Assembly (NCBI RefSeq): GCF_019059575.1
Contig: NW_024881836.1
Coordinates: 248,001-312,000, forward strand
Length of the DNA stretch: 64,000 nt
Source: Amphibalanus amphitrite
Taxonomy: Eukaryota > Arthropoda > Thecostraca > Balanomorpha > Balanidae
Reading direction: 5' to 3'
This document shows, in pieces, positions 11,507 to 48,900 of the stretch; the first letter of the stretch is position 1, and every line of letters begins with the position of its first letter. Both the position numbers and the translations under genes were made by a program. The notes beneath the pieces were generated by a model that saw only the letters and a list, made by a program, of their open reading frames with translations, did no database searches and was not told the DNA's origin.

Positions 11507-11763
11507 TTAGTAAGCGCCAATGTAAACAAAAATGAGTTAGAGAGTTAGAGATGCTAACGGGGTTTTTCGGGAACGACGGATTCGTTTCTGGTATCGCTTT
11601 TTTCATAACTTTCTCCAAAACTGAGATATTAAAGGGGTAGAATATAGCAAGTCCAGTGGCGTCTTCGGTTTGACAAAGAAAAACACAGCATGTGACAAGT
11701 TGCTGCATGCTAGGTTTTACCTCGACCAAAGAGACCTGAACATCCCATTTTGCGCTGAGTCCT

Positions 11764-12168
11764 GGGCCCTGTTTCACCGGTGATAGCAGCAAGCTGCTAT
11801 CACGTTTCGCGAGCTGACGTCATGTCGTGACGCCATACTGTTGTCGTAATGGGTAGTTCCGGCGCACGATTGCCGCGACCTTGGCGGCGGCATTAAGTGA
11901 CGTATGAGCCTAAAAGTAAGAGTTTACGCAGTCATGATAGTATATATATATTTTTGATATATATTTTTTCAATATGATGTATTTAAAAGAAGTTGGGTTT
12001 AGGAAAAATATTGACATTAACTTCGAACATTTAGCTGATGACGTAAAACAATATTGCGGCAATCGTGCGCCAGAATTGCCCCTTACGTCAGCAGTATGAC
12101 GTCATCACATTACGTCAGCTCGCGCAATTTGATAGTAGCTTGCTGCTATCACCGGTGAAACAGGGCCC
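11764..12168 (+). mobile_element. 405-bp MITE family M, copy 1 (complete)
   Basis: The element begins GGGCCCTGTTTCACCGGTG and ends with the reverse complement (CACCGGTGAAACAGGGCCC). Just inside each end GATAGCAGCAAGCTGCTATC forms a small hairpin. The interior is AT-rich around TATATATATTTTTGATATAT and contains TGACGTCA motifs. Four copies lie within 5 kb. The ~66-codon open frame in the middle differs between copies and is not treated as a gene. Confidence 0.9.
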
Positions 12169-13573
12169 TGATCGGCGGCCGGCTAGTACTCTTGCCCGCG
12201 CTCACATACGTGCACGTTACCCCGGCAACGGGCTATTGACCAATGAGAAGCGAGAAAAGTGTTACGTCACTGCGATTTTTCATATACCTGTGCCCCCCGG
12301 ACGTGACGTAGTGTGCTCGCGCGCGTGCAGGGTCTCTGCGATCGAAAAAGAGCGCTAGCAGCGCGCCACTCGACGCCGCAATTGTCAAAAGCGGCGTGTT
12401 AGTATGCTTTATTATGAATGATGTGTGTAAAAGTGACTTTTTATGTTGTTTATTTGGAGGAAATGGTTGGAATAAATTAAGGTACTTTTATTTCTGTTGG
12501 TTAGAGTTTTTATTCAAAAGATTTCGGTCTATACCATTGAGATTTACTGAAAATACCTTCGCTTGAATAAATTGCAGATATTTGGCAACTGAAGTGTTAG
12601 GTAAGCCTAAATGATATGTAAAAAGGTAAGAGACACCCTGATTATCATTTGAGAAACGAAAATATATGAATTTTCCTTATAAGACTCGCTCAATATGCTA
12701 CTCCGCGGTTTATGCCCCGAGGGTGTCCGAGGGTTCCCGTTAGTTTGTCGTTGGCGCTCGGCTCGCGCGCGAGCCGACGTCACCGCCTGTGACGTCGGCT
12801 CGCGAAATACGTCATACCCTGCACACAAAATAGCCGGCTGCCGAACAGCGCTCTGATGTGCATTGTGATAAAGTGTCGCATACCAGAGCGCTGTTCGGCA
12901 GCCGGCTATTTTGTGTGCAGGGTATGACGTATTTCGCGAGCCGACGTCACAGGCGGTGACGTCGGCTCGCGCGCGAGCCGAGCGCCAACGACAAACTAAC
13001 GGGAACCCTCGGACACCCTCGGGGCATAAACCGCGGAGCAGCATATTGAGCGAGTCTTATAAGGAAAATTCATATATTTTCGTTTCTCAAATGATAATCA
13101 GGGTGTCTCTTACCTTGTTACATATCATTTAGGCTTACCCAACACTTCAGTTGCCAAATATCTGCAATTTATTCAAGCGAAGGCATTTTCAGTAAATATC
13201 AATGGTATAGACCGAAATCTTTTGAATAAAAACTCCAACCAACAGAAATAAAAATAACTTAATTTATTCCAACCATTTCCTCCAAATAAACAACATAAAA
13301 ACTCACTTTTACACACATCATTCATAATAAAGCATACTAACACGCCGCTTTTGACAATTGCGGCGTCGAGTGGCGCGCTGCTAGCGCTCTTTTTCGATCG
13401 CAGAGACCCTGCACGCGCGCGAGCACACTACGTCACGTCCGGGGGGCACAGGTATATGAAAAATCGCAGTGACGTAACACTTTTCTCGCTTCTCATTGGT
13501 CAATAGCCCGTTGCCGGGGTAACGTGCACGTATGTGAGCGCGGGCAAGAGTACTAGCCGGCCGCCGATCAGGG
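12166..13573. repeat. 1.4-kb near-perfect palindrome (690-bp arms, 28-nt loop)
   Basis: The left arm 12166-12855 and right arm 12884-13573 are reverse complements with only scattered mismatches, separated by the 28-base loop 12856-12883. The outermost bases are CCCTGATCGGCGG and CCGCCGATCAGGG; the innermost are CAGCGCTCTG and CAGAGCGCTG. Both arms are the same length to the base. No protein is convincingly encoded; a 145-codon minus-strand frame crosses the loop only because the palindrome reads open. It is flanked by MITE-M copies in the same orientation. Confidence 0.9.
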
Positions 13574-13577
13574 CTCA

Positions 13578-13957
13578 GGGCCCTGTTTCACCGGTGATAG
13601 CAGCAAGCTGCTATCACGTTTCGCGAGCTGACGTCATGTCGTGACGCCATACTGTTGTCGTAATGGGTAGTTCCGGCGCACGATTGCCGCGACCTTGGCG
13701 GCGGCATTAAGTGACGTATGAGCCTAAAAGTAAGAGTTTACGCAGTCATGATAGTATATATATTTTTGATATATATTTTTTTCAATATGATGTATTTAAA
13801 AGAAGTTGGGTTTAGGAAAAATTTTGACATTAACTTCGAACATTTAACTGATGACGTAAAACAATATTGCGGCAATCGTGCGCCAGAATTGCCCCTTACG
13901 TCAGCAGTATGACGTCATCACATTACGTCAGCTCGCGCAATTTGATAGTAGCTTGCT
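13578..13957 (+). mobile_element. MITE family M, copy 2 (3' end missing)
   Basis: It starts GGGCCCTGTTTCACCGGTG, is nearly identical to copy 1, and stops at GATAGTAGCTTGCTG, lacking the final ~22 bases of the terminal repeat. It abuts copy 3, which is inverted. Together copies 1 and 2 flank the large palindrome as direct repeats. Confidence 0.88.
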
Positions 13958-14283
13958 GGGCCCTGTTTCACCGGTGATAGCAGCAAGCTACTATCAAATT
14001 GCGCGAGCTGACGTAATGTGATGACGTCATACTGCTGACGTAAGGGGCAATTCTGGCGCACGATTGCCGCAATATTGTTTTACGTCATCAGCTAAATGTT
14101 CGAAGTTAATGTCCAAATTTTTCCTAAACCCAACTTCTTTTAAATACATCATATTGAAAAAATATATATCAAAAATATATATACTATCATGACTGCGTAA
14201 ACTCTTACTTTTAGGCTCATACGTCACTTAATGCCGCCGCCAAGGTCGCGGCAATCGTGCGCCGGAACTACCCATTACGACAA

Positions 14284-16095: not shown

Positions 16096-16177
16096 CATTA
16101 CGACAACAGTATGGCGTCACGACATGAGGTCAGCTCGCGAAACGTGATAGCAGCTTGCTGCTATCACCGGTGAAACA

Positions 16178-16612
16178 GGGGCCCTGTTTCACCGGTGATA
16201 GCAGCAAGCCACTATCAAATTGCGCGAGCTGACGTAATGTGATTACGTCATACTGCTGACGTAAGGGGCAATTCTGGCGCACGATTGCCGCAATATTGTT
16301 TTACGTCATCAGCTAAATGTTCGAAGTTAATGTCCAAATTTTTCCTAAACCCAACTTCTTTTAAATACATCATATTGAAAAAATATATATCAAAAATATA
16401 TATACTATCATGACTGCGTAAACTCTTACTTTTAGGCTCATACGTCACTTAATGCCGCCGCCAAGGTCGCGGCAATCGTGCGCCGGAACTACCCATTACG
16501 ACAACAGTATGGCGTCACGACATGACGTCAGCTCGCGAAACGTGATAGCAGCTTGCTGCTATCACCGGTGAAACAGGGCCCGGGCCCTGCTATCACCGGT
16601 GAAACAGGGCCC
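16178..16612 (-). mobile_element. MITE family M, copy 4 plus a terminal remnant
   Basis: A complete reverse-orientation copy runs 16178-16581. It is followed directly by a 31-base remnant (16582-16612) that fuses GGGCCCTG to TATCACCGGTGAAACAGGGCCC, meaning an internally deleted fifth copy. Copies 3 and 4 share their junction bases. Confidence 0.87.
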
Positions 16613-22400: not shown

Positions 22401-25400
22401 TATGTGCACCTCATTATAGTAAAGTTATATAATGTCGGTGATGCTGACATGAACTCAAAACGTTTGTCCAAAACATAAGTATCGCCATACCTTCGACAAA
22501 ATAAATCCTGTAAAGGTCAACGAGCGTGGTCTTTTCAATCCCATCACCCTCTGGTGTGTTGTGACCAGCTCGTGTGTGCCGCAGTGGAGGAGTTCCGCGC
22601 CACCCAGCTGGGCCTGGACACCAGTCTGCCGCGGCCGGCGCCCGACGGCCGGTTCCGACAGACGGCAGCCATCCCCGAGGTGCAGGGCATGCCCACCAAC
22701 TGGGACTGGCGCGAGAAGGGCGCCGTGACCCCCGTCAAAAACCAGGTGCGACACCGCTGCCGGGGCTCTGCGGTCGGTGGTGTCAGGATGGGCTGTGGCT
22801 AATGATAGCGAATGTTTGTAAGGCTAATGCTTGGATGAGATGCTCGTGAATAGTTTTTAGTAGTGTTTTACGTTCTCGGAAGTTTTAGCTTTCCATTCAT
22901 AATTATTGTCAGAAATATTGAAATATTGAAAGCAAAGCTGGTCAGATTTATACTTTTAGAGCACGCTTGTAATATGTGCAATGGTGACATGACCGGTGGT
23001 CTTTTGCATGCGTGTCGTAGCGGGTCCTGTGTGAGTGTCTGCCCTGTCCTGACGATGACCCCACCATGTGGTCTGCGAGTCTGCCTGCCCTGCCCTGACG
23101 TTGAGCTGGCCTTGCGGTTTGTGACTGCCTGTCCTTCCCTGACTATTCTGACGGCGCCCTGTCCCTGCGTACAGGGTCAGTGCGGCAGCTGCTGGGCCTT
23201 CTCCGTCACCGGTAACGTTGAGGGACAGTACTTCATCAAACACGGACAGCTCCTGTCACTCTCCGAGCAGGGTGAGCCACTGCGAATTGCCTGCTCTAAA
23301 AGTACAGTACTCGACTGTCTGACTGAGTAAAAACGAATACGGTGTGGTTTAAAATTAAAACTAGGTACCTAAAACAAAATGCAGGAGTGTTAAGCTTTGT
23401 CTGTTTTAGCGAAAAACATGTATTTGTTATTGATGATGACGTTTGAGGGAACGTAGATCTCTTACTTTTGTACACCACTTTTGATAAGGCTACAGTCATC
23501 CACATGTTTTCTCGTTGCTGATACATGTCACAGTACCTTTGGTGGTACTGTCGTGGTGCTGCGGAGCGTAATGGCACTGGACCGGCAGTCTATAGCGGTG
23601 TGCCTGACCGTCCGCCCCACTTCCCGCCGCTCCCCAGAGCTGGTGGACTGCGACACCGACGACCACGGCTGCCAGGGCGGCCTGCCCGACCAGGCCTACA
23701 AGTTCATCGAGTTCCTCGGCGGACTCGAGGAGGAGAAGGACTACCCGTACGAGGGACGCAACGACCAGTGTCGGCTCAACCGCACCGACCTCAGGGTAGG
23801 CGCCAGCGGTGTGGGGCTGCTGCTAATCGAGCGGGCTGTCGAAGTGTTGCTCCCTTGGAGTCCTTAGACCACGGGCCCGTGTCATACCGATTACCTTGGA
23901 TTATAATTGCCCAGAACTGTTCCTTTTGAATATTTTTTGGCCGTCGTCCAGCGCTGCTGCTCCTTCTGAGAACATTTTGGCCTGGTGCGCAGTGCTGTAG
24001 CTGCCTCCGACGCCTGTGCGGTAGTTGGTTGTATAATATATTTATTTAAATGTCAGCATCTTTATCACCAACTGTTTGATACATATTTTTTTCTTGCGTG
24101 TGTGTGCACCGCCCTCCGACACCGCCTAACACTCGTCTGTGGCTGTTCCGTACTGTCGCAGGTGAAGCTGACTGGTAGTCTGGACCTGCCCAAAAACGAG
24201 GCCGACATTCAGAAGTGGCTCTACAAGAACGGACCCGTCTCGATCGGCGTCAACGCCAACCCCCTGATGGTGAGTGCTGGTCCGGTCCGCAGTAGGTGGA
24301 TGAGAGACCCGCGGAGCCTGCCGGGCGCAGTGGTGTCTTACCTGGTCCACGGTCGGGCGCAGGGGTGTCGCACTTGGTACACTTTGGTCCATTGAGCGCA
24401 GCTGGATGGCTCCGTACTACATTGCACCGGCGCGACCGCCATTCGTCGAGTGTTAAGTGGTTAGTGGTGTTCAGCGCCCTTGTGAATCGGTCGAGGCGAC
24501 CCGGCCAACCCACGGACTGAGCTAGTTCTGGGTTTGTTCTAAAACTGTCCCCATGTTTCAGTCTTACCGCGGCTCGGACTGAGCTGTGTTTCAGTTTTAC
24601 CGCGGCTCGTACCGAGATAGCTGTGTTGTGTTTGATTTTAACACCCTCGAACCGAATTGACTGTGTTGTGTTTCGGTTCGGTTTTACCTCAGACTTCGGT
24701 TTCACCACGCCTCGGACTGAGCTGTGTTGTGTTTCAGTTTTACCGCGGCGGGATCATCGACGTGTGGTCGTTCCTGTGCCGCGCCTCGGCCATCGACCAC
24801 GGAGTGCTGCTCGTCGGCTTCGGAGAGAAATGTGAGTAACTGTAACCCATACCCTCGGAGAAAAATGTAAGTGACTGTGACCCTAGTATCACCTTCGGAG
24901 AAAAATGTGAGTGACTGTAACCGATATCACCGGAGAGAAATGTGAGTGGCGCCTCTTTTTACTTTAGGGAGTTAACAACTTTAGGGGTGCATCCAGTCAC
25001 TCTGCCCGAGCTTCACTCGGCACTGCAGCGCTTGTCATCATCGAATGCGTGCGGTGAGGATGGGATCACAGTGAGCATGTTGCGACTAACCTTTCCGGTG
25101 ATAGCTCCGCATTTGTTAAACGTGATAAACGCCTCAATCGTTACTGGAGAGCTCCCGAGCGAGTGGAAAGTCGCAACTGTGGTCCCAATCCACAAGGCGG
25201 GATGCACAAGTGATGTTAACAATTACAGGCCAGTGTCGATCATTTCTACTGTGGCGAAGCTCACTGAGAGAGTCGTTTGTGATCAACTATTGCATTACCT
25301 GTTGTCCCACGGTGTGCTGTGTGAGGAGCAGCACGGCTTTCGGCCGGGGAGGTCCACGGAGTCGGCGATGTTGGACGCGGTCAGCTACATCACTCGAGTC

Positions 25401-27512
25401 ATAGACGAGGGTAAGATCGGTTGTCTGACAGCGATCGACACCTCCAAGGCTTTTGATAGCGTTCAGCATGGCCGGCTCCTGGACAAACTTGGCTGGTACG
25501 GCGTGGACACTCATTGGTTCAGTGACTGGCTCAGAGGCCGCCACCACAGAGTACGCGGGGGATCTGCGGAGACCGCTCCAATAACGCATGGCGTGGTCCA
25601 AGGATCGATTTTGGGGCCAGTGCTGTTTTTGTTATTCACAAATGACCTGACCTCATTTTTAAGTGACACTAAGATGGTTTTATATGCTGATGACGTTCAA
25701 TTCATTCACAGTGGTCACCCCAAGCATATTCATCAGTTGGAGCTTGAAATTGGACAAACGCTGAGCGACGCTCAGCGGTGGTTTACAGAAAATTCACTAA
25801 AAATTAATCCCAAAAAGACAGAGATCGTTCTATTCTCCACACGTCAAAGAAGAATAGGAAATGAGCTGAAAGTTCAATTTGGAGAAACAATGCTCCGCCC
25901 CACTTCAAACGCTAAAATTCTTGGGCTTATTTTGGATGAAAACCTCACGTTTGAAAAACATATTTCGAATATAGTAAAACGTTCTTATACTATTCAGATA
26001 GGTCTCTCCAAATTCTCCCGTCGGCTGCCACAGGAAGTCAAGAAATTGATTATTGAGGCCCTGGTGTTCCCACACATAATGTATTGCGCGACAGTGTGGG
26101 CAGCATGCAACGCTACACAGCGAAAACGCGTTCAAAAAATAATTAATCATGGTGCACGAATAGTTAAATGCTGCCGACGTCATCAGCATATCACGCCTCA
26201 CCTTACTGAGCTTGAGTGGCCGAGAGTAGAACAACTCATCACAGAACGTGACCTCGCCATGGTGCACCGCCTCCTCAACTCTGTCCATGCACCATCGCAC
26301 TTGCGAGACCTGCTGCAGCGTCGCGATTGTGTAACCGAGAGGGAAACGCGAGGATCAATGGCGGGAATGCTGCAACTTCCGCGGGTCCGCACGGAGCTCG
26401 CCAGACGTTCTTTCGGGTTTCGGGCAGCAGCGAGCTAGAACGAGACGCCGAACGAGGTTCGCCACGCCAGCACGGTCGTAGCGTTCCGCGCGGGGATGCG
26501 GAAATGTCGGGCTGGTCTTACCCAGATAGAATAGATCTCATCCGCCGCTGATTTTAAAATACGCTTGTAGGTAACTTGGATTTTAACAGCATCTCTTAGA
26601 AAATGAGTACAAATGGCTTATTCGTAGTATTTTAGTAGGTTTTTAGATCATTAGCTTTAAGGACAGTGCATATATGGAATGACTCTTGTGCTGAAAAGCC
26701 GTGTTTTAAACGGATGCCATACGAATACATGATGATGATGATGATGAACAAGTATGTGTGTGCTTCTTCAGCGGATTCGGGGTTGGTACTTAACGCGACT
26801 CGGATTAGTCTCAAGATACGGATTTTCCTCCCATCACAGGAACAGGGCATTAACAATAATAATACTAGGTGAAAACCTCCCAGGGAGAGAAGAGCTTCCT
26901 GTACGCTGTCCTTATGAAAGCGAAGCTGTCAGACTGACGCAATGCCCCCGTGTTTTGCAGCCTACCCAGTGGTGAACAAGACGAAGCCGTTCTGGATCGT
27001 GAAGAACTCGTGGGGTGCCGACTGGGGGGAGCAGGTACGTTTTGCAGCGGCAACGGTGACGCCCCCCCCCCCCCTGCCGCTCTAGGGACATCCGGTGGAC
27101 GTCGTTTGAAGCATCCACTGTTCTGTGTCAATGTGTACATTAGGGACTACTCATAGTAGCTCACCGTCTTGCCAAATGTTTCAGTTATCCGTGGGTTAGG
27201 ACTTAGGATGATCTTATAACACGTGTTTTGGGGAAAAGTGTATGCAAAAGCAAGTACTTCATCACCAATATCTGATTCACGGTGCATCAGTGGCCGTTAG
27301 GAAGGTTTGGCTGGATAAAGGGTCAATGTGCCTACCTGTGTTCCCCCGGTGACTGGTAGACTGTTGACTCAGACTGCCCTCTGCGGTACTGTATCCCCGC
27401 TGACATGCATGTGACCGTGCTGCGACCGCTCCCACAGGGCTACTTCCGCCTGTACCGGGGTAGCGACGAGTGCGGCGTCCAGGACATGGCCTCCTCTTCT
27501 ATCGTGGCCTGA
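19417..27512 (+). CDS. CTSF: cathepsin F-like papain-family cysteine protease with N-terminal cystatin domain
   Basis: Secreted or lysosomal endopeptidase zymogen, 469 aa (human cathepsin F is of similar length). Coding exons: 19417-19461, 20549-20704, 21047-21160, 21462-21557, 21937-22168, 22585-22745, 23175-23271, 23638-23795, 24162-24269, 24738-24831, 26961-27034, 27438-27512. Every junction is GT-AG and the phases agree. Exon 1 encodes a hydrophobic signal peptide beginning MMWKLVVV; a tandem ATG leaves the exact start open by one residue. Residues 16-137 form a cystatin-like domain with the QxVxG motif (QLVSG), split over an intron, and the PW motif (DQPWTG). Residues ~138-250 are the I29 inhibitor propeptide. 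The peptidase domain carries oxyanion Q268, nucleophile C274 ([10 protein letters not shown]), GCQGG, H410 and N436 (NSWG). Intron 10 holds a retrotransposon and duplicated splice junctions. Confidence 0.95.
24554..24737. repeat. tandem copies of the exon-10 acceptor junction
   Basis: The true acceptor reads TGTGTTGTGTTTCAG then TTTTACCGCGGC (exon starts 24738). Upstream, TGTTTCAG-TCTTACCGCGGCTCG at 24554-24576 and TGTGTTTCAG-TTTTACCGCGGCTCG ending 24609 repeat both the intron end and the first exon codons. Two more degenerate copies lie at about 24620-24651 and 24658-24700. Use of the 24595 acceptor would shift the frame (143 extra bases). Confidence 0.8.
24822..24950. repeat. tandem copies of the exon-10 donor junction
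   Basis: The donor context CGGAGAGAAAT|GTGAGT occurs four times, with GT at 24832, 24867 (GTAAGT), 24907 and 24942, spaced 35, 40 and 35 bases. Only the first keeps the catalytic frame: the base triplets after it read GAG TAA, so any downstream donor would leave a stop before the catalytic Asn exon. Confidence 0.82.
24942..26438 (+). pseudogene. non-LTR retrotransposon reverse transcriptase (5'-truncated, nonsense codon)
   Basis: About 495 codons of a reverse transcriptase of the jockey/CR1/L2 broad group. Visible motifs: [18 protein letters not shown], the first catalytic Asp in [24 protein letters not shown], and the catalytic YADD. The endonuclease half is missing. The open frame ends at TAG 26436-26438 exactly where relatives usually carry a Trp before an Asn. 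The same frame then continues with family-like sequence ([11 protein letters not shown]) to a second TAG at 26532. This is therefore a nonsense mutation and the copy is dead. The first few codons read into intron sequence and are not part of the family. Confidence 0.88.
24950..26749 (+). mobile_element. 5'-truncated non-LTR retrotransposon in cathepsin intron 10
   Basis: The RT remnant plus about 200 bases of 3' UTR ends in a short (GAT)n tail at 26728-26749, a common 3' terminus of non-LTR elements without poly(A). It is inserted in sense orientation between exons 10 and 11. The exact 5' edge and target-site duplication could not be resolved; the left edge falls right after the fourth donor-like repeat. 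Confidence 0.75.
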
Positions 27513-30541: not shown

Positions 30542-31553
30542 TTAACCCGCGCACCGACGGGGGTCTGCGCCAACTTAGTACCGACGGGGGGGGGGGGGCG
30601 GATGACCGCCCCCCCCCCCTGAGATCTCGAGAACGAAGCAAGATAGCGACAAGCGGTAAACGGCATCGGATATGCACGGTCAAGATCTACAATTTTTACT
30701 AAGGTCATTTTCAGGTCAGGTCAAAGATGACGTCACAGGGGTCGAAAAAGTCAAAATGGCGGCGCTGAATATGGAGAGAGTTTTTCTCGAATAACTTTCG
30801 AATTAGTCAAGATAGGGACAAACTAAGGGCATCATCGTGATCCTCTCGTCAATCCGCATCGAATGATATATGTTGACCTCGAAAGGTCAAGGTCAAAGGT
30901 TGACCTCAGGTCACGTGACCTCGAGGTCATCATGTATATCACTCGATGCGTCTTGACGAGCTGAACACAATGAGACCATCCACGCGTCTGTATCTTGTTC
31001 CTGTACGGAGTTATTGGCCAAAAACCTTTGGTGACCTTTGATGACGTCACATGACCTCACAGCTGCCCAACAGCAAAACAGACCTCAAGGTAGTGAAGGT
31101 TGATCGTATATGAAGTCATGTATGGTATATGGGGCCATTCCGACCCGTTTTAGTGGTAAAAACAGGGAGTTGATTTTTCCCCCATTGACTTATAATGGGG
31201 AGGTCGCGAAATTGACCTGACCTTAGGTCACCGATATCAAAATTCCGAGATATACAAATTGTAGCTACTAATGACCTAATAACATCCTGCGACTTTCAAA
31301 GGCCTCCGACATCTACTGTAGCTCTGGCACGGTGACAAAGTTGCAAAAAAGTGACTTGAGGTTGGGTCATTCAAAGTGACCTGGTGACCTGACCTTGAAA
31401 GGTAGGAGGTTCAAACTTGCACACCATGTGTAAAATTGATGAGGGAATAGTCATACCAAATTTCGCGGCGCTACGCGCCGCGGTTTTCCCGCTATTCGCG
31501 AAAAACCTCAGGGGGGGGGCGGATATCCGCCCCCCCGTCGGTGCGCGGGTTAA
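30542..31553. mobile_element. TTAA-type (piggyBac-like) element, copy A
   Basis: TTAA then CCCGCGCACCGACGGGG at the left and CCCCGTCGGTGCGCGGG then TTAA at the right, a perfect 17-base inverted repeat. An inner duplicate of the terminal motif (TACCGACGGGGG) follows at the left end only. G-tract hairpins sit inside both ends. I count 19 exact AGGTCA/TGACCT hexamers in 1012 bases, including TCAAGGTCA near 30889. It is nearly identical to copy B at 47854 and has no transposase. Confidence 0.85.
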
Positions 31554-31554
31554 A

Positions 31555-32430
31555 ATTTAAAGGTAGTGTGCCAGCTTTCTTGGACCGTATGGAGTTAATG
31601 GCCCAGATAAGGAGAACCGGATTTTTAGAACTTATCCATACCTTCAAAACTCATGGAAACGTCTTAAATTCTTCAAATTTTGAGTACCCCAGTGCGAAAT
31701 TCGCCCCGACGGGTTGTCGGTCGTACCCCAACCACATTTCACACCACTATGAACAATACATGCACACACTGAAATCGCTATTTCCGATATGCTCATCCAA
31801 TCAAGTTTCGATAAACCCGTTCATCATCATCTCCTGCGGTTTCGAACACGCCTGTTAGGTGGCTTCTGATGCTCGTCGAGGTCGGAATTTCCAAATACGC
31901 GTGGTGCGTCGGGCCGCGCGCTCTGACTTCGGCCAAGAAAAATGCGTCAGCTGATCATTGTCATTTCTGCCACTTGCATGTGGTGAAATGGGGTCATAAC
32001 TTATAAGACGGCTTTTTCATATCAATTATTTTACATAAAATCATATTTCAAACCATAAATAATGTTCGACAGCCAAATAAAAGAAACAATACCAATACGG
32101 GCTTACAGTTTAAGGCTCAACATTGTGTTGTCTACGATTAGACAGCTGATAACTCATTCCCGTACGTCGTATGGTCGTAACACTATTATAATGACCTTTG
32201 CTTATTGTCACAAGTGCGCCGCATTCGCGATTGTTGCCCGACGCCTGTTTGCAGGTGAGCCCACTACAGTTGTTATACATATCTAAAAACCGAAAAACTT
32301 TTAGGCGAAAAAGGCACTATTCCAGGCCCATTTTTGATTTTTTTTTGCGATATTAGGTAAAAACAGAAGCTTCTTATCCTAGGAAAAATAAAATGGGAAA
32401 TCTTTCAAAGGTGGCACACTACCTTTAAAT
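31555..32430. mobile_element. 876-bp inverted-repeat element next to copy A
   Basis: ATTTAAAGGTAGTGTGCCA at 31555-31573 is exactly reverse-complemented at 32412-32430. The element starts one base after the TTAA of copy A and ends about 320 bases before the ed start codon. No transposase frame is seen; it is probably a MITE with an AT-rich target. Confidence 0.8.
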
Positions 32431-32439
32431 AATTCACCA

Positions 32440-32753
32440 TCCGTGCACTATTCGCGCTGGCCGCCGCCGCCCTCCTCCACCCCACGGGCTCGCCGTATTT
32501 GTATTGGTTACAACCGGGGCAGGCCGGCTGGCGAGCGCCCGGCGCCGCTCGCGGAGGGAGGCGCGCGTCTCGGCGCGGCGGGCCGGCCCGGGGCGGCGGT
32601 GGGCGGCCGGCGAGGCAGCGGCGGCGGGCGGCAGTTGTCGGAGAGCAGTCCGAGGGTGAGGGCCGCGCGCGGTGGTCGCAGTGGCAGCCTGGTGTGTGAG
32701 ACGGACCTGGGCGATGCGGTGCTGAAAAAGTGACTCAGAAAACCGAAGCAGTG
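32440..32753 (+). promoter_or_regulatory. GC-rich promoter / 5' UTR region of ed
   Basis: A CpG-dense block immediately precedes the signal-peptide exon and follows AT-rich transposon DNA, which is typical of a promoter and 5' leader. No TATA box is evident. The transcription start cannot be placed from sequence alone. Confidence 0.45.
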
Positions 32754-35700
32754 ATGCAGATGATCGCTGGATTTATCACGGCAGGTGAGTTCCGGGCGTT
32801 CACGTTGGGCTGTTGATCAGTTTCGAGGTGTCTTTCACGATAAGTTTTACTGTGTACTCTCTGCGGCACAATAAGAATAGAAACTGCGCCTAGACTAGCA
32901 TCCATCATAAGCCTTAGGTCACAGTGCTCAGTGTCAGTGTTTCAGGCCACACGTCGCGCCGGCCCGTGACGACTCCCGACTAGTTAAGTTTGTCGGTACC
33001 GAGGCATTCGTCTCCAACCAGCGGGCGGCGACACGTCTGATCAGTGGCCTTCTCCCGTTTCCTTGTGAAAACATGCGATCGAATGACAAGGTGATGGGCA
33101 TCTGGCGCAGCCAGTGTCCCAGACTCTAGCCAGCAGTGGCGCCGCCTGTGCCGGTTGTAGTGACCACAGGCACCCCTGGCCAGCATGTCCGGCGCCTATG
33201 ACGACCACTGCCGCTCCTGCGGCCCCCTTCCAATCACCGCGGTAGTACCCAATTAGTGGGTGTTTCCTGGAGCCGCCACTGGGCGCCGGCTGCTGCCGCG
33301 TCCCCTGCAGTTTTTATCGGCTGTGCCAGGTGCGGCACCCACACAAACGGCTATTTCACCTCGGGAACAAACCCCAATAACTGGCACCGTGATTGTTACG
33401 GGGAGTTAGACGGGTCGTCAAATTAAAGGGACGCTCCTACTAGGGCCGTATCCAGTATAGTTACATAGTTAGTGAGGAATGGGGCAGATGATTCCTCCCT
33501 TACGATAGCGCCAGGCCAGGTCCTAAAATAAAATCGCATCTTTGATCTGTTTGGTTATTTTTCTTTTATGTTTTGTGTCGGAACCTCAATTCAAACGGAT
33601 GAAGTCCGTTCATGCGCTCCTTTCCTTTCTACTTTTTTTCTACAATTGCAATCGGCCCATTTTTTAAAGCCAAATAAATAAAGTTGTAATTATAAGCGGC
33701 TCACTGTGCGCAAATCCGGCTGCCTGTCGACATTACGCTGCCGACTGACCTCCGTGCGACCCTTGGTGACCCGAGTGACCTTTGGTGACCCGTGTGACCC
33801 CGGCGTCCACCACGCGGCGCACAGAGAAGGGGAGTGCCACCTCTGGGAGGAGCCGACACAAGCCACGATAACACTGCCGGCAGATACAAATGGCAAACTC
33901 GCGCCCACCGTCCCGCCGCGTGCTGCAGCGTGTATGTCCATTTATCTATCAGCCAACTTGCAATATTTATGACCGGTGCAATTTATTTGATCGACTTCGT
34001 CCTTCAACGACCACGTCCTTTATGGTGGGCTATTTTTTCTCCTATATTTTCCAGCAGCATTATTTCGTCGCGGCATTTATTAATTGATATGTAGCTGTAA
34101 GGTACGGGGCAGTTGCTTCTGTACACGAACCCCAACTCCAGCCGTCTGTCCTGTCCAGTAACAACTGATAACATTGCTATCGACTGTCGGTCCCTGTACA
34201 AGAGCAGCTGAGGTTTCCTGTGAGTGCCCTCTGACAGTTTATCGTTGTTTCCTGTGAAGGTGCTGGGACAATTTACTCAGGGTCGCTGTACAGTAGCAAC
34301 TGCGGGTCCCCGTACCTGAGATGGATACTTCATTATAAACGTCTCGTCTCTCGCATTGCAATGAGGGCATTGTTGGGTGGGATAGGTGATGGCCGTAGGG
34401 AATCTCTTATATTCGTGCTTGCACTAAGTGCCGGTGGTTTTGAAAATGCCAGTTATTTTTTCCCTAAGCCAAAGGAATGTGCACTGACAGATTACTGCGT
34501 GAATTTGGACAAAATACCTTGATCACGCTTCCAGACAAACGCGTTTTAACAAAAGACCGCTTATGTTCATCGGAACGGGAATTTCTTTGGCGGCATTATC
34601 GCCCTTCTATCGCCAGCCCGGTCTGTGTGCGGCTGGGGTTTTAGTTGCGCCCTTTTCTCTGGCGCCGCCCGCTGATCGGGTCTGATCCTCCGTCGCGCCG
34701 CCCCTGGCTGTCCCATGGAGCCGCCCCTGGCTGTCCCATGGAGCCCGCGCCTCTCAGGCCTGCGCCTCATTGAGTCTGTAACGAACTCTCAATAGTGGCG
34801 GCCGCTGGTGGATCTTGGAGCCCGGGCGAACAAACCGCCGCTTAGCGCGCCCTCTTCGTACCCCGCTGGGCCTCGTCGGACGCCGAGCCTGGATGGATCT
34901 TTCGTGTCACCGCTTAGGCCTCTCCAAAACTCCGCCGATGTCCCGTAAGGAGTTCATTTTTGTTAAAATCCAGACTCGTGAGATCCAAGATGCAGATATC
35001 TCAGTGCAGTTTTTCAGAACCTCGATATGATGTCCCCAGCTAGTCAACTACCTTTTTATTTTGTTGGACTTTGTCATTGTTTCTGCAAACTCGCGGGAAC
35101 TGTGTCTCATCGATGGGACTTAAAAAAGTACTTACCTTTGGTAAGTCGGCGAAGCGGTTAACCGCTGTGAACTGTCGTCACAGGGTGTCGGTTCGGCGTT
35201 ACGTATATGCCGAGTGCATCGCTCTCTCCGCCCTCTCTCTCTCTCTCTCTCTCTCCCTCCCTCCCTCTCCCTGTCTGTCACCCTCGGGGACAGCTGTTAG
35301 CAGATCGGTCGCCCGACCGCGCGCTGTGGAGAAGGATTAAGGATCGGGATGTGTGCGTGTGGGTGGGGGGGGGGGGGGGGCATTTGGGCCGCATACAATC
35401 ACTGCAGATTATTGTACGTCTCTCGGGCCCGGCCCCTACGTGCCTCACAGGCTAATATGTAAAGGAATAGGAAACCGCGGATTAGGAGAGTTTCGACTTC
35501 CATCTACCGGTCAGTAGGCATGCCGATCTTGGTTCTTCGGGTAGGTGTAACTAATAACTATTTCAGGTGGTGAGTGACGGCTCTGATACTCGCCGTCTGC
35601 CAGCCGCGATAGGCGCGGCACGTATGCCAACAAATCTTCCACGGAATCCCAGACCGTGGACAGGCCCGCAGAAAACGCACCACGGAGAAACGAACCCAGA

Positions 35701-36967: not shown

Positions 36968-39900
36968 TCAGGAGAGAGGACAGAAGGAGAGTGAGAGAGA
37001 GAGAGAGAAAAAAAAAACAAAGGGGAGAGCAAGAGAAGTTTGGACTGGGTTGACATGAATAAGATATATTTTTACATAAACAAGATACGTATGTTTAATT
37101 TACTGCGTTGCAGTGTACGGCCGTTCGGTGCGCTGCATTGGGTGCAGGGCCGCGGCGTCCGCCTGGCCGGCCTCTGGTGCAGGTCGGCGGCGCGGCCCGC
37201 CTGGGGCGACCCCGGCGGCCCGGCCGGCGCCGCCCGCTCGCCCGCTCGCCGCACGGGAATGGGGCCAGAGCGCGGCGCGGCCGGTCGGTCGGCCGGGCCG
37301 CTGCAGCCGGCGGCACCTGGCGCCGTTCGCCGTTCGCCGGCCGTGGTAGCGGCGGCTTGGAGCCTGGGACGGTCGCTCGGCAGGCCTGCAGGGACCGGTG
37401 CATTACCGTCAGCCATTACCCGGGTGTGGGAGCTGCAATAAGTGGTTGTCGTACGGGTGTTATGTGCCGGATTGTGCCAGGAAAATAGGGCAAGTCTGTT
37501 TTATTGGTCTGGTTATAGTCTGCTACGGCTTTCCTGGGGCACATGGTTTGTTGAAGCATCTGATAGTGTGCCGATATTACCTGTCTTGTGTGATAACGGC
37601 TATCATTCTGAAAGACAAGCACACACAAATTGTTAACCAAGCCTTAGCAATATATCAGCTGCTCAATCTAAGGGTTTCTATGGATTCGAATGTGAAAAAT
37701 ACGGATTGTTGCACTGCTTTTAAAGCTCTGCAATTGTTTTTTGGTCTGTTCCTGGCGTCAGAACTCGTATGGACTCGGCTCACCCCGGGACAGCATCCAA
37801 ATATTCTCCCGGGACAGTTCCCAGAGATTGCACGGGATAGTTGGGGCATTCCACGATAGATCGTACCAGGCCCGTCACCCTCATCTCTCAGGTTTTAATG
37901 AAAATCGGTCCTGAAAATCAGAGGCCCCAAAGACGCCTGGCAAAATATCAGACTTCTCAGATCAAAACTTTTTGAGTTATATTAAATTGCATTTTTTTAA
38001 CTTCGGTTTGTAACGGTGAGTTTGATGGCCTATAACTCAAGAACGGGTTAAGCAACCAACAAACAGTAAACTACACTAAGCTTGCGATGAATCAAAAATT
38101 AATATCGCTATTTAAAAATTCCAAAGAAAAATTTTCATTGTTGAGCAAAAACCTTAATCTTTTTTCATTTGCCTCTAATGACTTTTGGGACCAAAATTTT
38201 TCACATTTTTATTTTTCAAAAATAAACTTCATGTCATTGCAAATCGACATGCAAAAAAATAGAAAAGTGTTCTTTCTATAAGTTCCTCATTTTCCCGCAA
38301 ACAAAATGGGTTTCGGAGGGGTTGATACGACCCCAGCACGCCGTTTCGCTTCTGATAGAGCTAGAGCCTCGCGGAAAAAAAACGAGCGTGTGTGCCGTTA
38401 CAAGTCGCAACGATTGGTACCCGATTTTAAGGTCTTATGTTAACCGGTGGCGTCTGAGGTCAGGTCACGTGACTGAAGTTCCGGGTTCGGTTTTTAGTAA
38501 ATAACTTCGCAAAAAATGGCCGCAGAGCCGCGATTTTGGCATCATTGTGTTCGCCTAGCTCAGGTGCATCGAATGGTATACTTTTTGCTAGGGTGAGGTC
38601 AACTTAAGTAGTTGACCTCGGGTCAAGGTCAGGTCAGAGCCCCTCAGGTCACGAAGCTGGGCAAAGGGTATCATATGGCATATCATTCGATTCGGAAGGT
38701 CTTCCCGAGTCCATTGGTGGCTTTCCCGACTCTCTAGCTCCATTTGATCGGGAGTTCTTGACGAAAAACTCGTGCGACCCTAGTGACGTCATAAATGACG
38801 TCACGCAAGGTTAACAATGCAAAAGTAAAGCATTGGACATTGCAAGGAGTGCATGAAATCACGATACCATGTACGTGAGAGTGTTTTAGATCATTCTCGG
38901 CGCCAAAATAACAGTTTTTTATATTTCCCCACTGATTTATAACAGTGATGTCACGTGACCGACCTGACCTCATGTAACCTTAAAAAGTCCCAGATATACA
39001 AGTTGTGAGACCTCTGGAGGACACCATGTATGCGTCCTGTAACTTTCATCTCGGACAGCTATGGTCATTGGTGTCCAAAACAATGTCATAACCAAACAGC
39101 CTTTTTCACCCTCGCGCTTATAGGAAAGAGGGTTGGATGAACCCTCTTTTCACTTTTTTCAGATGACTCAGACTTAAATTGAAATTTCAGTAACCCGTGA
39201 TGTCACCAGGCAGCTTTACCACGCCATTTATAAGCTCCCCTCCCGAAATCGCCATTCGAAACCGTTATCGTGACGTAAAATAAATACATTTATAGAAAGA
39301 ACACCTTCCTAATTTTTTGCATACTTCTTAACAATGAGCCAAATATCTTTTTAAAGAAATAAAAATTCAAAAAAAATTGGTCCCAAAGTCCAAAAAATAC
39401 AAATGAAAGAAAACTCGATATGTCATACATCAAAAATAGCGTATTTTTCGAAATTTTAAAAATACATATTAATATCTGTTTCATTGCAAGTTCAATGTTA
39501 TATAACATTTGGCATTTGAATAATCCGTCTCAGAGTTACAGCCCGCCAAACTTAGCGCTGCAAAGCAAGATCCAAAAAATGTTATACACCATAACTCAAA
39601 AAATACTTATCTGATAAGCCTGAAATTGTTACAGGTGGATTCAGAGCCCCTGATTACCCCTGATACCAATTCTCGTCAAATTCCGAGAGATGAGGGTGTC
39701 AAATTGGAAAAAAGTGGTACGATCTATCGTGGAATGCCCCAGTTCTCATATTTAGATCGCCTGGAACAGTTCTGAACGATCGCCCGGGACAGCTCCTAGA
39801 GTTAGCCCCGGGACAAAGCCGGATCAGTTCCCAGGCATCGCCTCGGGACCGGTCAGTGCTTCGATGCGTACCTACTGATGACTGAACTGCCGGTCTCCAG

Positions 39901-42900
39901 CGGACGCTGCCCCTCCCTCTCCACTGCTTGTCGAGCTACGGAGCCGAGGGACGGAGGGACTGACAAACAAACAGGGCAATAGCCGCCGGGTCGCCCCGCC
40001 CACCGCCGCGCCGGCGGAGTGGGCCTTACACACGTGTTTTTCTGTTTGCTCTCCATTATGCGTTTGTCGGCGGTGGTTCTGCTCGTCACCAACCCTGGTT
40101 GATGTGGCCGCCCTGTGTCGCAGAAGGCTGTTTGGCTGTAGTCGGTTGGTGTTTGAACGGTTCCGATGCTGCTGTGTTGTACATTTCCCTTTCGTTCTGC
40201 TGAAGGGAAGGTCGGAAGGTCTTACGGATAAACCGTTTAGCATATCCGCTCGATTCGAATACTAGAATGATTCATTACAGAGATTCATGATTTACCTATT
40301 TTGACTACATTTTCAAGTTTTTTTTTTTTACAACGAGATTCTTGAAAAAGATGGAACTGGCACATTGGCACTGGAATCCGATTACCAACGACTAATTAGT
40401 GACATTACGCACACTGACAAAGATGACAGTCCGTGCACTTTGCAGCTCTAGCAGTACGAGTCATACTTCGAATATTGGCACGCAGATATTGACAAAAGTT
40501 GCAGCACGCCATTAGATCCTTCAACGGATGGAGCGCAATAGTACAAGAAACTGCAGCGGATGGTGAGTGTTAGCATCGAACTTCAGTAAAAGAAATGTAG
40601 AGTAGCGCGAGAGACTTCAGTGAATGGATAGTGGTGAGATTTCAATAAAACCCAAAGGGAAGCGGGAGGGACAGTGGGTGGAGAGCGCTAGCTCCAGAGA
40701 CTTCAACTGATGGAAGGCGACAGCACCAGAGACTGCAATGGATGCAGAACGCTAACATTAGAGTTCAACAAATAGAGAAGGGTAGCACAGGAGAATTCAC
40801 CGGGCGAAGTAGTGCCTATTTAGTACCTATAACATCTGAGACTGACACCGATAAAGAGCGTGATACCAGAGACTGCAACGGGCTAAGAAGGGTAACAACA
40901 GAGACTGCAACGGGCTAAGAAGGGTAACACCAGAGACTGCAACGGGCAAGGTAAGATAACACTAGAAACTGCAACGTGCAAGGAAAGATAACACCAGAGA
41001 CTGCAACGGCCAAAGAAGGGTAGTACCAGAGATTGCAACGGGCAAGAAACTTAGAAAAGATAGCATCAGAGACTACAATGGGCAAATAAGGGTAGCACCA
41101 GAGCTTACATACAACGGCCGGTAGCACTGCAGATTACTAGAAAAATGAAAAGTGCTCCCAAATGAGTTTGATGCAGAATGAGAACTGCTGTGAACAATAG
41201 GCAGCGGTTCGATTGGGCGCCGAGATTACCCGAGAGTCCTCAGTGCCTTGTCCTAACTCCTAAGTGTCCAGGCGTGCCACCCTCTGTCCCGTCGAGTCCG
41301 GTGCCCTGTTCACTGTTCAGAGTGTCCAGCCGCGGCACCCTCCACGCTCGCGGTAGCCGCCATTTCATTCCTGGAAACAAAGGCGGCCAATCGTCGCCAG
41401 TTTCTCGAGTCATGGTGCCCCTGGGGCCTCAGACCCGGCTGTCACGGGTGCCCCCGGCGCCTCAGAGCCGGCCAGTCACGGCTGTGCCAGCAGAGGCCGG
41501 TGTCCGCACCGCGGCATCTGTCGCCCGCGACGACCCGTGGGGACCGGGTACGCACAGAACTGCCGCCCGCCAGGCAGCCAAGTCCTCCTCTCGGCGACCG
41601 GTCGGCCGGGCCAGCCGGCTCATTTAGTGAGACGTCGCCGCCGCCGGCGCCGAATTTGCATTCCTGGGTCGAACACAAATGGAATGCGTGGACGGCGCGC
41701 GGAGTTTGGAGGCGCAGATAACGGCACTTTTCTGGCGTGCCGCGTGCTCCTCCGTGGGAGGCGACAGAGAGTGATTGTTGTGCTGTGTCCTGAGTCCGGT
41801 GTGGCCGGGGTCGCCGCACCCCGGCTGGCCGGCTAGGCTGCTGCAGTACTGATCAGAGTGGAGCAGGAGGTGTGCTGCGCCCAGAGGCAGCCATTCGTCT
41901 GAAATATGACCGTGCATTGATGGCGGCGCCAGACTCTGTGCTCGTAGTCTGCTCTCGGGCGGTCACGGGCGGTTAGGAGCCCAACCCAGCTCACGTGACC
42001 ATCTGCCCGGCTCGCCTGCCTCCAGGCAGTAATTGGTACCGGTAATTTGTCTATACAAACCCGGCCGACTGCTGCCTGGTCGCGGCTCGGAGCGGAGGCT
42101 ATCAGCCGGAGAGACGGCTATGTATCTGCCGGAGGAGTCGCGGTGCATCGGGTGGATCGTAGTCGATGTATTGGCGGAAATGTGGCTAGTTACGTATCGG
42201 CCGTATGGGCGGCATGTATCGGCCGTATGGTAGGCCGTGTATCTGATGGAAATGTGACTATGTATCGGCCGGAGGGACTGCTGTGTACTGGCGGTCGCTG
42301 TACCGCGGCATAGGCCGGCCGCCGGCGCTGGCGCTGACTGCGTCACGGTATGATCGGCGCCGCCGGCCGGCCGGACCGCTCGCTCTCCGGCAGATGCCGA
42401 GGCGGGCCGGACCCAGGGTGCATCCGAGCCGACCGGACCGGAGCGGAGCGGCGTCACTGGCCGGCACCCCGTGGTGCGCCGCCACACCGTCTGGGAATCT
42501 CCAGTGAGAGGGGACGGTGGCGAAGTGGGAAGTGGAGAGAAAGAAGGATCGATTACCGGGAAGATTTTTGATTAGATTGAAAAAAGAGATGAATAGGGAG
42601 AGCTGCGGTGATGAAGAGAGGAGAAGGTGGACCGAAACTGAGATCCAGGGCTCTGGAGACGGTCGCTGCCCGTGAGAGTGAGATTCAGCGGTCGTTCAGC
42701 GGTTAAGCACTAAGAGAAACGATCAGTCCAGAGCAGAGCATTGCAGATGTTATGTTTTTCTTCTTTATCGCGATTGTACCTTATCGCAGCGTAAATTTGA
42801 GTGCTGAAACTCTGAGCGAATGCAACAATCGAAAAAATAATCCCATCTCCCTCGTCAAAGATACCTAACCAATCTTCCTTCGACTGGAGCCATTTAGAAA

Positions 42901-45900: not shown

Positions 45901-48900
45901 GCTGGAAACCTATTACACAGATACGTGAATCATTTTGATAAATCAAACTACACTGCCCAATGTTTTAATCGCCAAGATTCGTTATGCAGTGAGCACTTCC
46001 GACTCTGATGGCCAACAACTACATTGTGGCTTTATATAGGCGCACCGGATAACAGCAGTAAGCCAAGCAACACAAGCTCACTCTTCAAATATTGACACGC
46101 AGCTTGCAAAAATTTAGAGCACGTTATTATAGTCTTCGTCGGACGTATGGTAGCATCAGAGACTGCAACAGGAAAAGAAGGGTAGCACCAGAGACCGCAA
46201 CGGGCAAAGAAGGGTAGCACCAGAGACTGCAACGGCCAAAGAAAAGTAGCACTAGAGACTGGAAACGGATAAAGAAAGGTAGCACCAGAGACTTTGAACA
46301 AAGAAATGTAGCACCAAAGACTGCAACGGGCAAAAACAAGTAGCACCAGAGACTACAACGGCCAAAGAAGGGTAGCACCAGAGACCGCAACGGGCAAAAA
46401 CAAGTAGCACCAGAGACTACAACGGCCAAAGAAGGGTAGCACCAGAGACTGCAACGGGTAAAGAAGGGTAACACCGGAGATTCCGACGGTCGGTTGCGCT
46501 GTAGATTACTATGAAAAGTCAAAATTAATCCCAGGTTCGGTATTAACCGTGCGAGAACTGATCCATGTGCTGGATAACTGAGAATAATAGGGAATGGTCA
46601 GAAAGGACGCGCTGCCGTCTTCTGTCCAGGCTTGCCCACTGCCCCAACAGACGATATTTTTTAATACCATATCCTTTTTTGATTATATCTAGGGCAGAAG
46701 TTTAATAACCATGCGAAGAGAACTGGTTCTCTGAGAACTGAGAACTGGCATGAAACTAAATTCGTGGGGAGTGTTGATACCAAATAACTACGAAGAAACG
46801 GGACCTATTTCATTAACTATGATTCGATCTCGCAACAGGATGCTAACTAATTGTATTGGTGTTCTTATAAAGTTACATGCGAAGCGAACTATACATAATT
46901 TCGCGCCTAAACATCCTCGATTTATCTTATCACCCATCCCTCTGAACAGCTCGCCACTCCCCTGTCCAGCACTGCTCTCCTCTTCACTCGGCGTCCGCGC
47001 TGAGTGCGGACCGGTGCCGCCCCGAGGCAGGAATGCGTCTGATGAGCGGACGGCCGTGCCCAAGAGTAGCTAACTGCCCTGCTGCCGCCTCAGGGCCTGG
47101 GAGGAGCGTGCCAGCTTCGCCGCCCGACGCTGCTATGTGTGGAGTACTTAGATTGAAAGCTTTGTGCGGAACTGCGCTGCTCCGTGGTGCGTCCGCGTCA
47201 TTTAGCCATGCTGTTCTTCATTGCAGGCCCGCGCCCTGCGCTGTGTCGTCCCACGTCTTTCAGCCCCGTTGTTCTCTGTGTTGCAGGCCTGCTGGTGTGG
47301 GCGGCCGGTGCGCAGGAGGCGGCCACGGTGGTGGATGTAGCCGATGGAGGGGATGCAGTGCTCCGATGTCGGTTCGACCCGGCTCTGGTGGACCCCAGGG
47401 AGGCCTCGTTCGACTGGAGCCACCGCAGTGGCGTCTGGGACAACGTGGCCATCGAGGGAAAGTCCTTCAGGAAACGATACCGGTGAGAAGGGGCAACAAC
47501 AACGGGGCAGGGCTGGGGCCGGGGTCAAGTTAGGGGCCTCAGGACTCGAGGGGTGTTACCAGGGTTCAGGTTGAAGGTTGGTCGGTGCTGTGTATCGTGG
47601 GACCAATAATTTCTTGAATGGATGACTTACGAATGTGTTGAATGTGCCTTTGGCTTCCATTTTTATTTAGCTACTTCGCTGCAGTGGGCCAGGTCACTAA
47701 CCTAAAGCTAACCCAGGTCCGGCAAGTCCGACAATGTCGTGTCGTGGGAAGGGTGGGTGTTCAGTTAAACATCGTCCCGCCTTTGTGGTCGGTTGTACGC
47801 ACGATAGACTCCGGCAGGTGCTGCTGTCGTGACCTAGGGTTTGGCTGGTGCTCTTAACCCGCGCACCGACGGGGGTCTGCGCCAACTTAGTACCGACGGG
47901 GGGGGGGGGGGCGGATGACCGCCCCCCCTGAGATCTCGAGAACGAAGCAAGATAGCGACAAGCGGTAAACGGCATCGGATACGCACGGACAAGGTCTACA
48001 ATTTTTACTAAGGTCATTTTCAGGTCAGGTCAAAGATGACGTCACAGGGGTCGAAAAAGTCAAAATGGCGGCGCTAGATATGGAGAGGGTTTTTCTCGAA
48101 TAACTTTCGAAGTAGTCAAGATAGGAACAAACTAAGGGCATCATCGTGATCCTCTCGTCAATCCGCATCGAATGATATATATGTTGACCTCGAAAGGTCA
48201 AGGTCAAAGGTTGACCTCAGGTCACGTGACCTCGAGGTCATCATGTATATCATTCGATGCGTCTTGACGAGCTGAAAACAATGAGACCATCCGCGCGGCT
48301 GTATCTTGTTCCTGTAAGGAGTTATTGGCAAAAAACCTTTGGTGACCTTTGATGACGTCACATGACCTTACAGCTGCCCAACAGCAAAACAGACCTCAAG
48401 GTAGTGAAGGTTGATCGTATGTGAAGTCATGTATGGTATATGGGGCCATTCCGACCCGTTTTAGTGGTAAAAACAGGGAGTTGATTTTTCCCCCATTGAC
48501 TTATAATGGGGAGGTCGCGAAATTGACCTGACCTTAGGTCAACGACATCAAAATTCCGAGATATACAAATTGTAGCTACTAATGACCTAATAACATCCTG
48601 CGACTTTCAAAGGCCTCCGACATCTACTGTAGCTCTGGCACGGTGACAAAGTTGCAAAAAAGTGACTTGAGGTTGGGTCATTCAAAGTGACCTGGTGACC
48701 TGACCTTAAAAGTTAGGAGGTTCAAACTTGCACACCATGTGTAAAATTGATGAGAGAATAGTCATACCAAATTTCGCGGCGCTACGCGCCGCGGTTTTCC
48801 CGCTATCCGCGAAAAACCTCAGGGGGGGCGGATATCCGCCCCCCCCCGTCGGTGCGCGGGTTAAAATCCTGGTTATATCTAATGCCCACGGCCACACACT

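Follow-up and report, generated by a model that had tools for sequence, protein, structure and literature searches.

A family of elements in the window (the entire 64-kb stretch of DNA under analysis) carries dense interior arrays of the nuclear-receptor half-site hexamer AGGTCA/TGACCT. The hexamers are sharp in the apparently young copies, stand between unrelated flanks and are nearly absent from the element ends. They are accompanied by a recurring module, and the interior is shared with an element that has ends of another kind. The reading that we tentatively prefer is that the array may be a homotypic cluster of sites for a host protein of nuclear-receptor half-site specificity, maintained on source copies.

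The exact hexamer occurs 133 times in the whole window. Element A contains 19 copies, an enrichment of nearly 40-fold over 1000 dinucleotide shuffles of its own sequence, which average 0.506 and never exceed 4. Element B contains another 19, and since A and B are 96.8% identical across the full element they are treated as a single observation. These figures agree with the earlier note, which had given about 19 hexamers and a chance expectation of about 0.5 for each copy. Every type of hexamer pair that it had described (direct, inverted and everted) has been found, and both its extended half-site of the FTZ-F1/ERR type, TCAAGGTCA, and its second motif, TGACGTCA, occur twice in A. The related arrays that it had placed at 6.8, 37.8 and 60.2 kb are also present, with 16 hexamers over 7453–7823, 8 over 38457–38970 and 26 over 59815–61608, respectively. 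Their description has to be amended in two respects, as the 60.2-kb array belongs to a nested pair, with 18 hexamers inside the TTAA element at 60185–61113 and 8 in the surrounding sequence, and the 37.8-kb element has ends unlike those of A. The features are collected in Table 1.

Table 1. Elements, module copies and associated features in the window
Feature	Position	Strand	Description
Element A	30542–31553	+	TTAA-flanked; 19 hexamers; 22-bp perfect terminal inverted repeats TTAACCCGCGCACCGACGGGGG (TTAA included)
Hexamer-bearing interior of A	30702–31395	.	16 independent runs; hexamers 8 plus, 11 minus
Module copy in A	30777–30929	+	profile match
Inverted module copy in A	30875–31030	-	with the 30777–30929 copy, a foldback of ~260 nt
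Module copy, right subterminal A	31385–31511	-	weak with A held out (E 0.095)
Element B	47854–48864	+	another copy of A (96.8% identity) with 19 hexamers; flanks unrelated to those of A
6.8-kb element	6790–7981	+	related, TTAA-type; 16 hexamers, 15 in the same orientation; left TTAA is TTGA (6789–6792)
37.8-kb element	37843–39740	+	related core, different ends; TIR GGGGCATTCCACG...; 8 hexamers
Inner 60.2-kb element	60185–61113	+	TTAA-type; TTAACCCTCGCCGGCACAGG at both ends; 18 hexamers; inserted in older hexamer-bearing sequence
Outer 60.2-kb sequence	59736–61640	+	older, decayed; 8 hexamers; split by 60185–61113; ends approximate
G/C runs	30580–30620, 31507–31536, 6800–6835, 7913–7940, 60203–60216, 61039–61068		in TTAA-type elements

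With the elements, B and the satellite at 300–2100 excluded, the background density is 42 hexamers in 55,179 bases. The elements were pooled as A together with the 6.8-, 37.8- and 60.2-kb elements (6009 bp, B being left out except where named), and the pool holds 69 hexamers, a 14.9-fold enrichment over that background. The 18 one-base variants of AGGTCA total 87 in the same pool, where the background would predict about 56, and their excess sits in ACGTCA (19), GGGTCA (11), ATGTCA (9), AAGTCA (8), AGGTCG (5) and AGGTCT (5). The commonest of these, ACGTCA, is part of the CRE-like palindrome TGACGTCA, which occurs in A at 30720–30740 and 31035–31055, four times in the 6.8-kb element, twice in the 37.8-kb element and not in the 60-kb region. 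Hexamer counts are alike among A, the 6.8-kb element and the inner 60.2-kb element, at 19, 16 and 18 in 1012, 1192 and 929 bp.

TTAA stands at both ends of A and B, which lie in unrelated flanks, and of the inner 60.2-kb element, and the 6.8-kb element has TTGA at one end. The termini of all four are of the form CCC...GGG, and those of the TTAA elements are alike (TTAACCCKCGC). A and B both start with TTAACCCGCGCACCGACGGGGG and finish on the exact reverse complement of that sequence, and the 6.8-kb element reads TTGACCCGCG... on the left and ...GCGCGGGTTAA on the right. The 37.8-kb element is bordered instead by a 4-bp AGTT (37839–37842 and 39741–39744). Stop-to-stop frames of at least 120 codons lying wholly inside A, B, the 6.8-kb, the 37.8-kb or the inner 60.2-kb element have not been found; long frames overlap the right end of A (31451–31858) and the left end of the 37.8-kb element (37350–37859). 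The earlier proposal that the elements recruit nuclear receptors for their own expression is weak in view of this coding content. Elements A, B, 6.8 kb and inner 60.2 kb are apparently non-autonomous, TTAA-inserting transposons of the piggyBac/TTAA type.

The resemblance to the piggyBac superfamily, as described in the portion of the source covered (PMC7351741), lies in the TTAA target and the CCC...GGG termini; the elements here differ from it in having no 120-codon frame and a long interior array, and A begins with CCCG rather than CC[C/T]T. A CC[C/T]T terminal rule has been given for the superfamily, as quoted in the covered part of PMC2872659. The inner 60.2-kb element (CCCT) fits this rule, while A, B and both ends of the 6.8-kb element read CCCG, and we therefore use the label “piggyBac/TTAA-type” rather than assign full membership of piggyBac. 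Kolobok elements likewise have TTAA as their target, but their termini are 5'-RR...YY-3' in the part of the description covered (PMC9587614) and differ from CCC...GGG, so membership of Kolobok is rejected.

Several further features of the ends have been observed. Long runs of G and/or C, mostly capable of forming hairpins, are located just inside the terminal repeats of the TTAA elements. A 24-nt arm of the 6.8-kb element, GGGGGGGGCTATTTTTTGCCCCCC, has a perfect inverted copy at the opposite end. As read from the sequence, part of the terminal repeat is duplicated at one end in A (left, 30542–30600), in the 6.8-kb element (right, 7935–7981) and in the inner 60.2-kb element (left, 60185–60238), a one-sided asymmetry that could be relevant to transposase binding.

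Once overlapping copies are merged, the 69 hexamers form 53 independent runs, and overlap in the form (AGGTC)n accounts for 16 of the 69. Over the ten bases flanking these runs, the pairwise identity is 0.261 upstream and 0.268 downstream, against 0.254/0.255 (sd 0.006) in nearby controls, the downstream flanks being 2 sd above control. Of 1378 run pairs, 2 share 80% or more of the bases on one side, where the controls give 2.6. The flanks are thus essentially unrelated, and what recurs is the hexamer itself rather than any longer unit. Tandem Repeats Finder lists two short arrays in the 6.8-kb element (7602–7630 and 7624–7648) and none in A. The earlier note had considered that an internal tandem repeat might account for all of the hexamers; with 16 of 69 hexamers explained by overlap and the flanks of 53 independent runs near control similarity it does not, and a pure tandem-repeat origin is rejected.

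The runs lie close together. Gaps of 0–5 bp number 23, against 5.6 (sd 2.0) under uniform placement, a value reached in none of 500 randomisations. The orientations of these close runs (DR 13, IR 4, ER 6) show no preference when compared with shuffled orientations (12.7, 5.1 and 5.2). Adjacent hexamers no more than 20 bp apart form 46 pairs, among them 16 overlapping DR-1 pairs and a single IR1. On steric grounds, the simultaneous filling of an overlapping DR-1 pair by two receptors would hardly be possible, and IR1 is the classical ecdysone-receptor geometry. The array would be compatible with nuclear-receptor recruitment in its 6-bp core and its gaps of 0–5 bp, with orientation unpreferred.

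The interior of the 37.8-kb element can be aligned with those of elements that have different ends. From 38359 on it matches A 30641–31315 with 69% identity over 620 columns, and from 38315 on it matches the reverse of the inner 60.2-kb element with 75% identity over 289 columns. Since these alignments hold despite its other ends, the core is common to elements with different ends. The interiors of the 6.8-kb and inner 60.2-kb elements align over 7625–7950, and the interior of A aligns with neither of them above controls, only the outer ~150 bp being alignable. The outer 60.2-kb sequence resembles A in its left part (81% over 101 columns) and the reverse of the 6.8-kb element in its right part (74% over 495 columns).

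A profile of the repeated module, trained on ten stretches of 121–201 bp each, matches the window 14 times with E < 0.001; 3 of these matches are in B, and all fall within the described elements, in both orientations. Because these ten stretches had trained the profile, the matches were checked with one element held out per round and GGTCA masked. The held-out matches are 5.0e-9 and 1.3e-7 in A, whose right-end copy reaches only 0.095, 3.7e-9 in B, and 9.8e-10 and 8.1e-7 in the 37.8-kb element. The 60.2-kb region gives 2.9e-6, with its other two training copies at 0.49 and not found, and in the 6.8-kb element one copy reaches only E 0.047 and the other is not found. The module, of approximately 100–150 bp, thus recurs both ways round in A, 37.8 kb and 60.2 kb and is weakly supported in the 6.8-kb element. 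A matrix of identities between module arms was built from gapped best alignments, which overstate identity, and supports no claim. The module matches contain 30 of the 69 hexamers, and the module alone is therefore insufficient to account for the array.

Tests of whether the hexamers are better conserved than their surroundings, a question set by the earlier note, disagree with one another; diverged homologues are nearly neutral, whereas the apparently young copies hold few relics and the A/B comparison has no substitution in a hexamer. A and B differ by 30 substitutions, none of them in hexamers, and 8 fall in a misaligned G/C run (31518–31529) and were excluded. In the 881-base core, none of the remaining 22 lies in the 111 hexamer bases (P 0.052, one comparison). 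Relics have been counted as one-mismatch sites. A, the 6.8-kb and the inner 60.2-kb element together have 53 exact sites and 41 one-mismatch sites, against 20.3 of the latter by chance, and 13 of the 41 are ACGTCA. The 37.8-kb element and the outer 60.2-kb sequence have 16 exact sites and 46 one-mismatch sites, against 20.9 by chance. The first three look young or maintained and the other two decayed, where “young” is based on the few relics and, for A, also on the similarity of A and B.

When homologues are aligned in four pairings, 11 of the 41 hexamers present in one sequence, taken as the first, have remained intact in its partner, compared with 7–14% of other 6-mers, a figure biased by the picking of intact hexamers. 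When the union of sites is taken in the same pairings, 11 of 50 are kept in both sequences against 9.7 expected from two neutral lineages. The four pairings were chosen by us. One partner in each looks decayed, so this result neither excludes nor supports maintenance on source copies. The per-base identities of hexamer columns and the rest are 0.79/0.67, 0.75/0.74, 0.94/0.73 and 0.80/0.83, the first figure of each pair being inflated by the same picking. Extending the comparison to all pairings that beat the controls (10 of 30, with a threshold of 1.25 times the best control) gives 24 of 89 sites kept against 16.9 expected. The added alignments are short, mutually overlapping and partly anchored by the shared hexamers themselves, and this weak excess is one that alignment bias and overlapping pairings could produce. 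The 6.8-kb and inner 60.2-kb elements are the one pair of apparently young families whose interiors align; in this alignment, likewise partly anchored by hexamers, 5 of 11 sites are kept in both against 2.1 expected. Alignments made with the hexamers masked give identities of 0.00–0.44 in the hexamer columns, but 0.70 for those shared in A/37.8, and at face value speak against conservation; they were not used because masked columns align arbitrarily.

The strongest competitor of a host-protein array is neutral inheritance, in which an ancestral TTAA-type element with an interior that was GGTCA-rich by chance, through pentamer slippage and inverted duplication of the module, was amplified and its hexamers are now idle. 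We consider this a real possibility, ranked below the host-protein array. It agrees with the near-neutral retention in diverged homologues, with the random orientation of the hexamers, with the sharing and two-way duplication of modules that hold 30 of the 69, and with the (AGGTC)n overlaps and the two short tandem arrays of the 6.8-kb element. The essentially unrelated flanks of the 53 runs, however, are unexpected for duplicated segments unless these are very old, and at such an age the hexamers should have left one-mismatch relics, of which A, 6.8 kb and inner 60.2 kb have few. Furthermore, the interior of A cannot be aligned above controls with the interiors of these two elements, yet the three have similar hexamer counts. 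The combination of unrelated flanks with few relics is the reason for preferring the host-protein array, and the near-neutral retention in homologues, the indifference to orientation and the small number of copies available for comparison are the reasons for keeping our confidence in it modest.

A role of the hexamer in transposition itself may also be considered, as a site for the transposase or for an accessory protein encoded by the element, with the array acting as an internal enhancer of transposition. Some precedent exists in the portions of the literature covered, since the authors of the CMITE study suggest that a conserved interior aids the transposition of TTAA MITEs (PMC2872659), and extra transposase-binding sites at piggyBac ends stimulate activity (PMC7351741). 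The position of the hexamers makes this reading improbable. The numbers of hexamers less than 150 bp from an end are 0, 0, 0 and 1 in A, B, 6.8 kb and inner 60.2 kb, against 5.6, 5.6, 4.0 and 5.8 if they were uniformly placed. The outermost hexamers of A are 160 and 158 bp inward of its ends, and the outer ~157 bp are avoided in all four elements, the one exception being a hexamer at 35 bp in the inner 60.2-kb element. In the piggyBac structure, as far as the covered part describes it, the first 16 bp are in contact with the transposase, whose cysteine-rich domain binds a 19-bp repeat at bp 17–33 of the left end (PMC7351741). As these contacts lie at the ends and the hexamers do not, an end-binding role is unlikely, and it is rejected as the main function. 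An internal enhancer of transposition, like that proposed for CMITE interiors (PMC2872659), retains a low probability. The same hexamer is also found in the 37.8-kb element, which has other termini and another target duplication, and there the hexamers begin 615 and 771 bp from the ends.

The folding of the elements has been calculated as well. As RNA, the foldback at 30776–31035 reaches -105.6 kcal/mol (z -7.8), and 30620–31510 as DNA also gives a z of -7.8 (20 shuffles). The RNA z values of the cores are -9.6 for A, -7.2 for B, -5.2 for 37.8 kb, -3.2 for inner 60.2 kb and -1.6 for 6.8 kb, and three control stretches give -1.0, 0.5 and 0.1. The stretch of the 37.8-kb element homologous to the hairpin of A has a z of -1.9. 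When the hexamers are blanked, the cores of A and inner 60.2 kb weaken from -9.6 to -5.1 and from -3.2 to -1.9, whereas the hairpin of A keeps a z of -6.9 (-6.6 intact in the same run), and the foldback therefore depends on the inverted module. The hexamers strengthen folding where they are present in both orientations, but the array of the 6.8-kb element is not accompanied by the fold. A hairpin origin, in which selection acted on a long RNA or DNA hairpin and the array came about only because AGGTCA pairs with TGACCT within the inverted-module foldback, is thus very improbable despite the strong folds of A, B and 37.8 kb and the weakening of the cores of A and inner 60.2 kb on blanking. Foldback is rejected as a general cause by the 6.8-kb element, in which 15 of the 16 hexamers point the same way, by the weak 37.8-kb homologue and by the persistence of the A hairpin without its hexamers.

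For the preferred host-protein array, the following mechanism may be proposed. The outer ~157 bp, containing the terminal repeat, the G/C runs and the subterminal module, would be used by a transposase acting in trans. The interior would act as a homotypic AGGTCA array, mostly in both orientations and often with spacings of 0–5 bp, set among copies of the module, and would bind a putative sequence-specific host protein. On source copies the array would be retained or re-made because of a presumed benefit for persistence, possibly through chromatin opening or through activity in the germline or in moulting tissue. In dead copies it would be left to decay.

The closest precedents for the arrays, within the portions of the literature covered, are the CMITEs of corals and the receptor sites in Alu. 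Alu is a retroelement. The CMITE families of Acropora, as described in the portion covered, resemble these apparently non-autonomous elements in being non-autonomous and TTAA-flanked, with CCC-starting termini that vary between families, an interior of unexplained origin that is common to several families, and a case of one element inside another (PMC2872659). They differ in being ~100 bp long with a 75-bp interior, against ~1 kb here with a module in both orientations; a dense AGGTCA array is not described for them in that portion, and the sharing of a core with ends of another kind (AGTT duplication) is a feature of the present elements that differs from the CMITEs (PMC2872659). The likeness in interior sharing applies to A and 37.8 kb, whose ends are unrelated and whose cores are 69% identical, but the termini of the TTAA elements are also alike, and the interior of A does not align with those of 6.8 kb and inner 60.2 kb. 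In Alu, a transposon family has similarly spread AGGTCA-type half-sites, as DR2 retinoic-acid elements (PMC1785376) and HNF4alpha sites (PMC3252374). According to the parts covered, binding has been demonstrated by chromatin immunoprecipitation, with receptors recruited to the DR2 sites in vivo (PMC1785376, PMC3252374), and the DR2 elements are a single main site type that arose largely through CpG deamination (PMC1785376). The present elements, unlike Alu as described there, are DNA transposons with ~19 candidate sites per kb in A and mixed geometry. Among the literature matches listed, viewed as titles and abstract openings, no paper concerns AGGTCA arrays in TTAA elements.

Exact-pattern scans of IMG/VR with the terminal repeat and with the module returned no contigs, in a collection that may leave out records belonging to the window's own genome. 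A further scan, with a hexamer array as the pattern, gave one G+C-rich IMG/VR contig of 8113 bases with 11 hexamers (L001); it gives the impression of protein-coding viral DNA, does not match the module at E values up to 10, and was set aside as chance. Rfam gives no matches and ARAGORN no tRNAs in the window.

Immunoglobulin-domain, papain-like protease and reverse-transcriptase sequences are also present in the window, the Ig-domain frames pointing to an animal host. A second inverted-repeat element directly adjoins A (31555–32430, 24-bp arms 96% complementary), and it is followed at ~32450–32790 by very G+C-rich sequence with a possible short first exon. The end of B is 269 bp from an Ig-domain reading frame (49133–49618). 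The open frame of 505 codons at 24921–26438 contains a reverse transcriptase domain (PF00078, E 1.8e-33) and is probably a fragment of a non-LTR retrotransposon. Other repeats in the window include a 52-copy tandem repeat at 921–2008, whose 21-bp unit CCTGAGAGGGCCCTCTGTGTG leaves several reading frames open over long stretches; long repeats, inverted as well as direct, that form a family at 11761–14283 and 16098–16602, the longest matches being 92–99% identical; and two separate arrays of a 32-bp tandem repeat (unit with AGAGACTGCAACGGGCAAAGAA) at 40865–41045 and 46149–46480.

An extended form of the host-protein reading, which we consider rather unlikely, is that these non-autonomous transposon families carry a transferable receptor-bait cassette, made up of a dense orientation-free half-site array and the module, kept by selection on source copies and transferred among transposons whose ends differ. 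If so, mobilisation or persistence of the elements would be coupled to the hormone-receptor state of the host, and ready-made hormone-responsive arrays would be scattered near genes. If the arrays are not bound, their marked motif enrichment, for all its exact likeness to hormone-receptor sites, would be an inherited quirk of composition that misleads any motif scan of this genome. If they are bound, every new insertion would bring as many as 19 receptor half-sites to a single locus, and the family would offer a clean natural test of transposon selection for host-factor sites.
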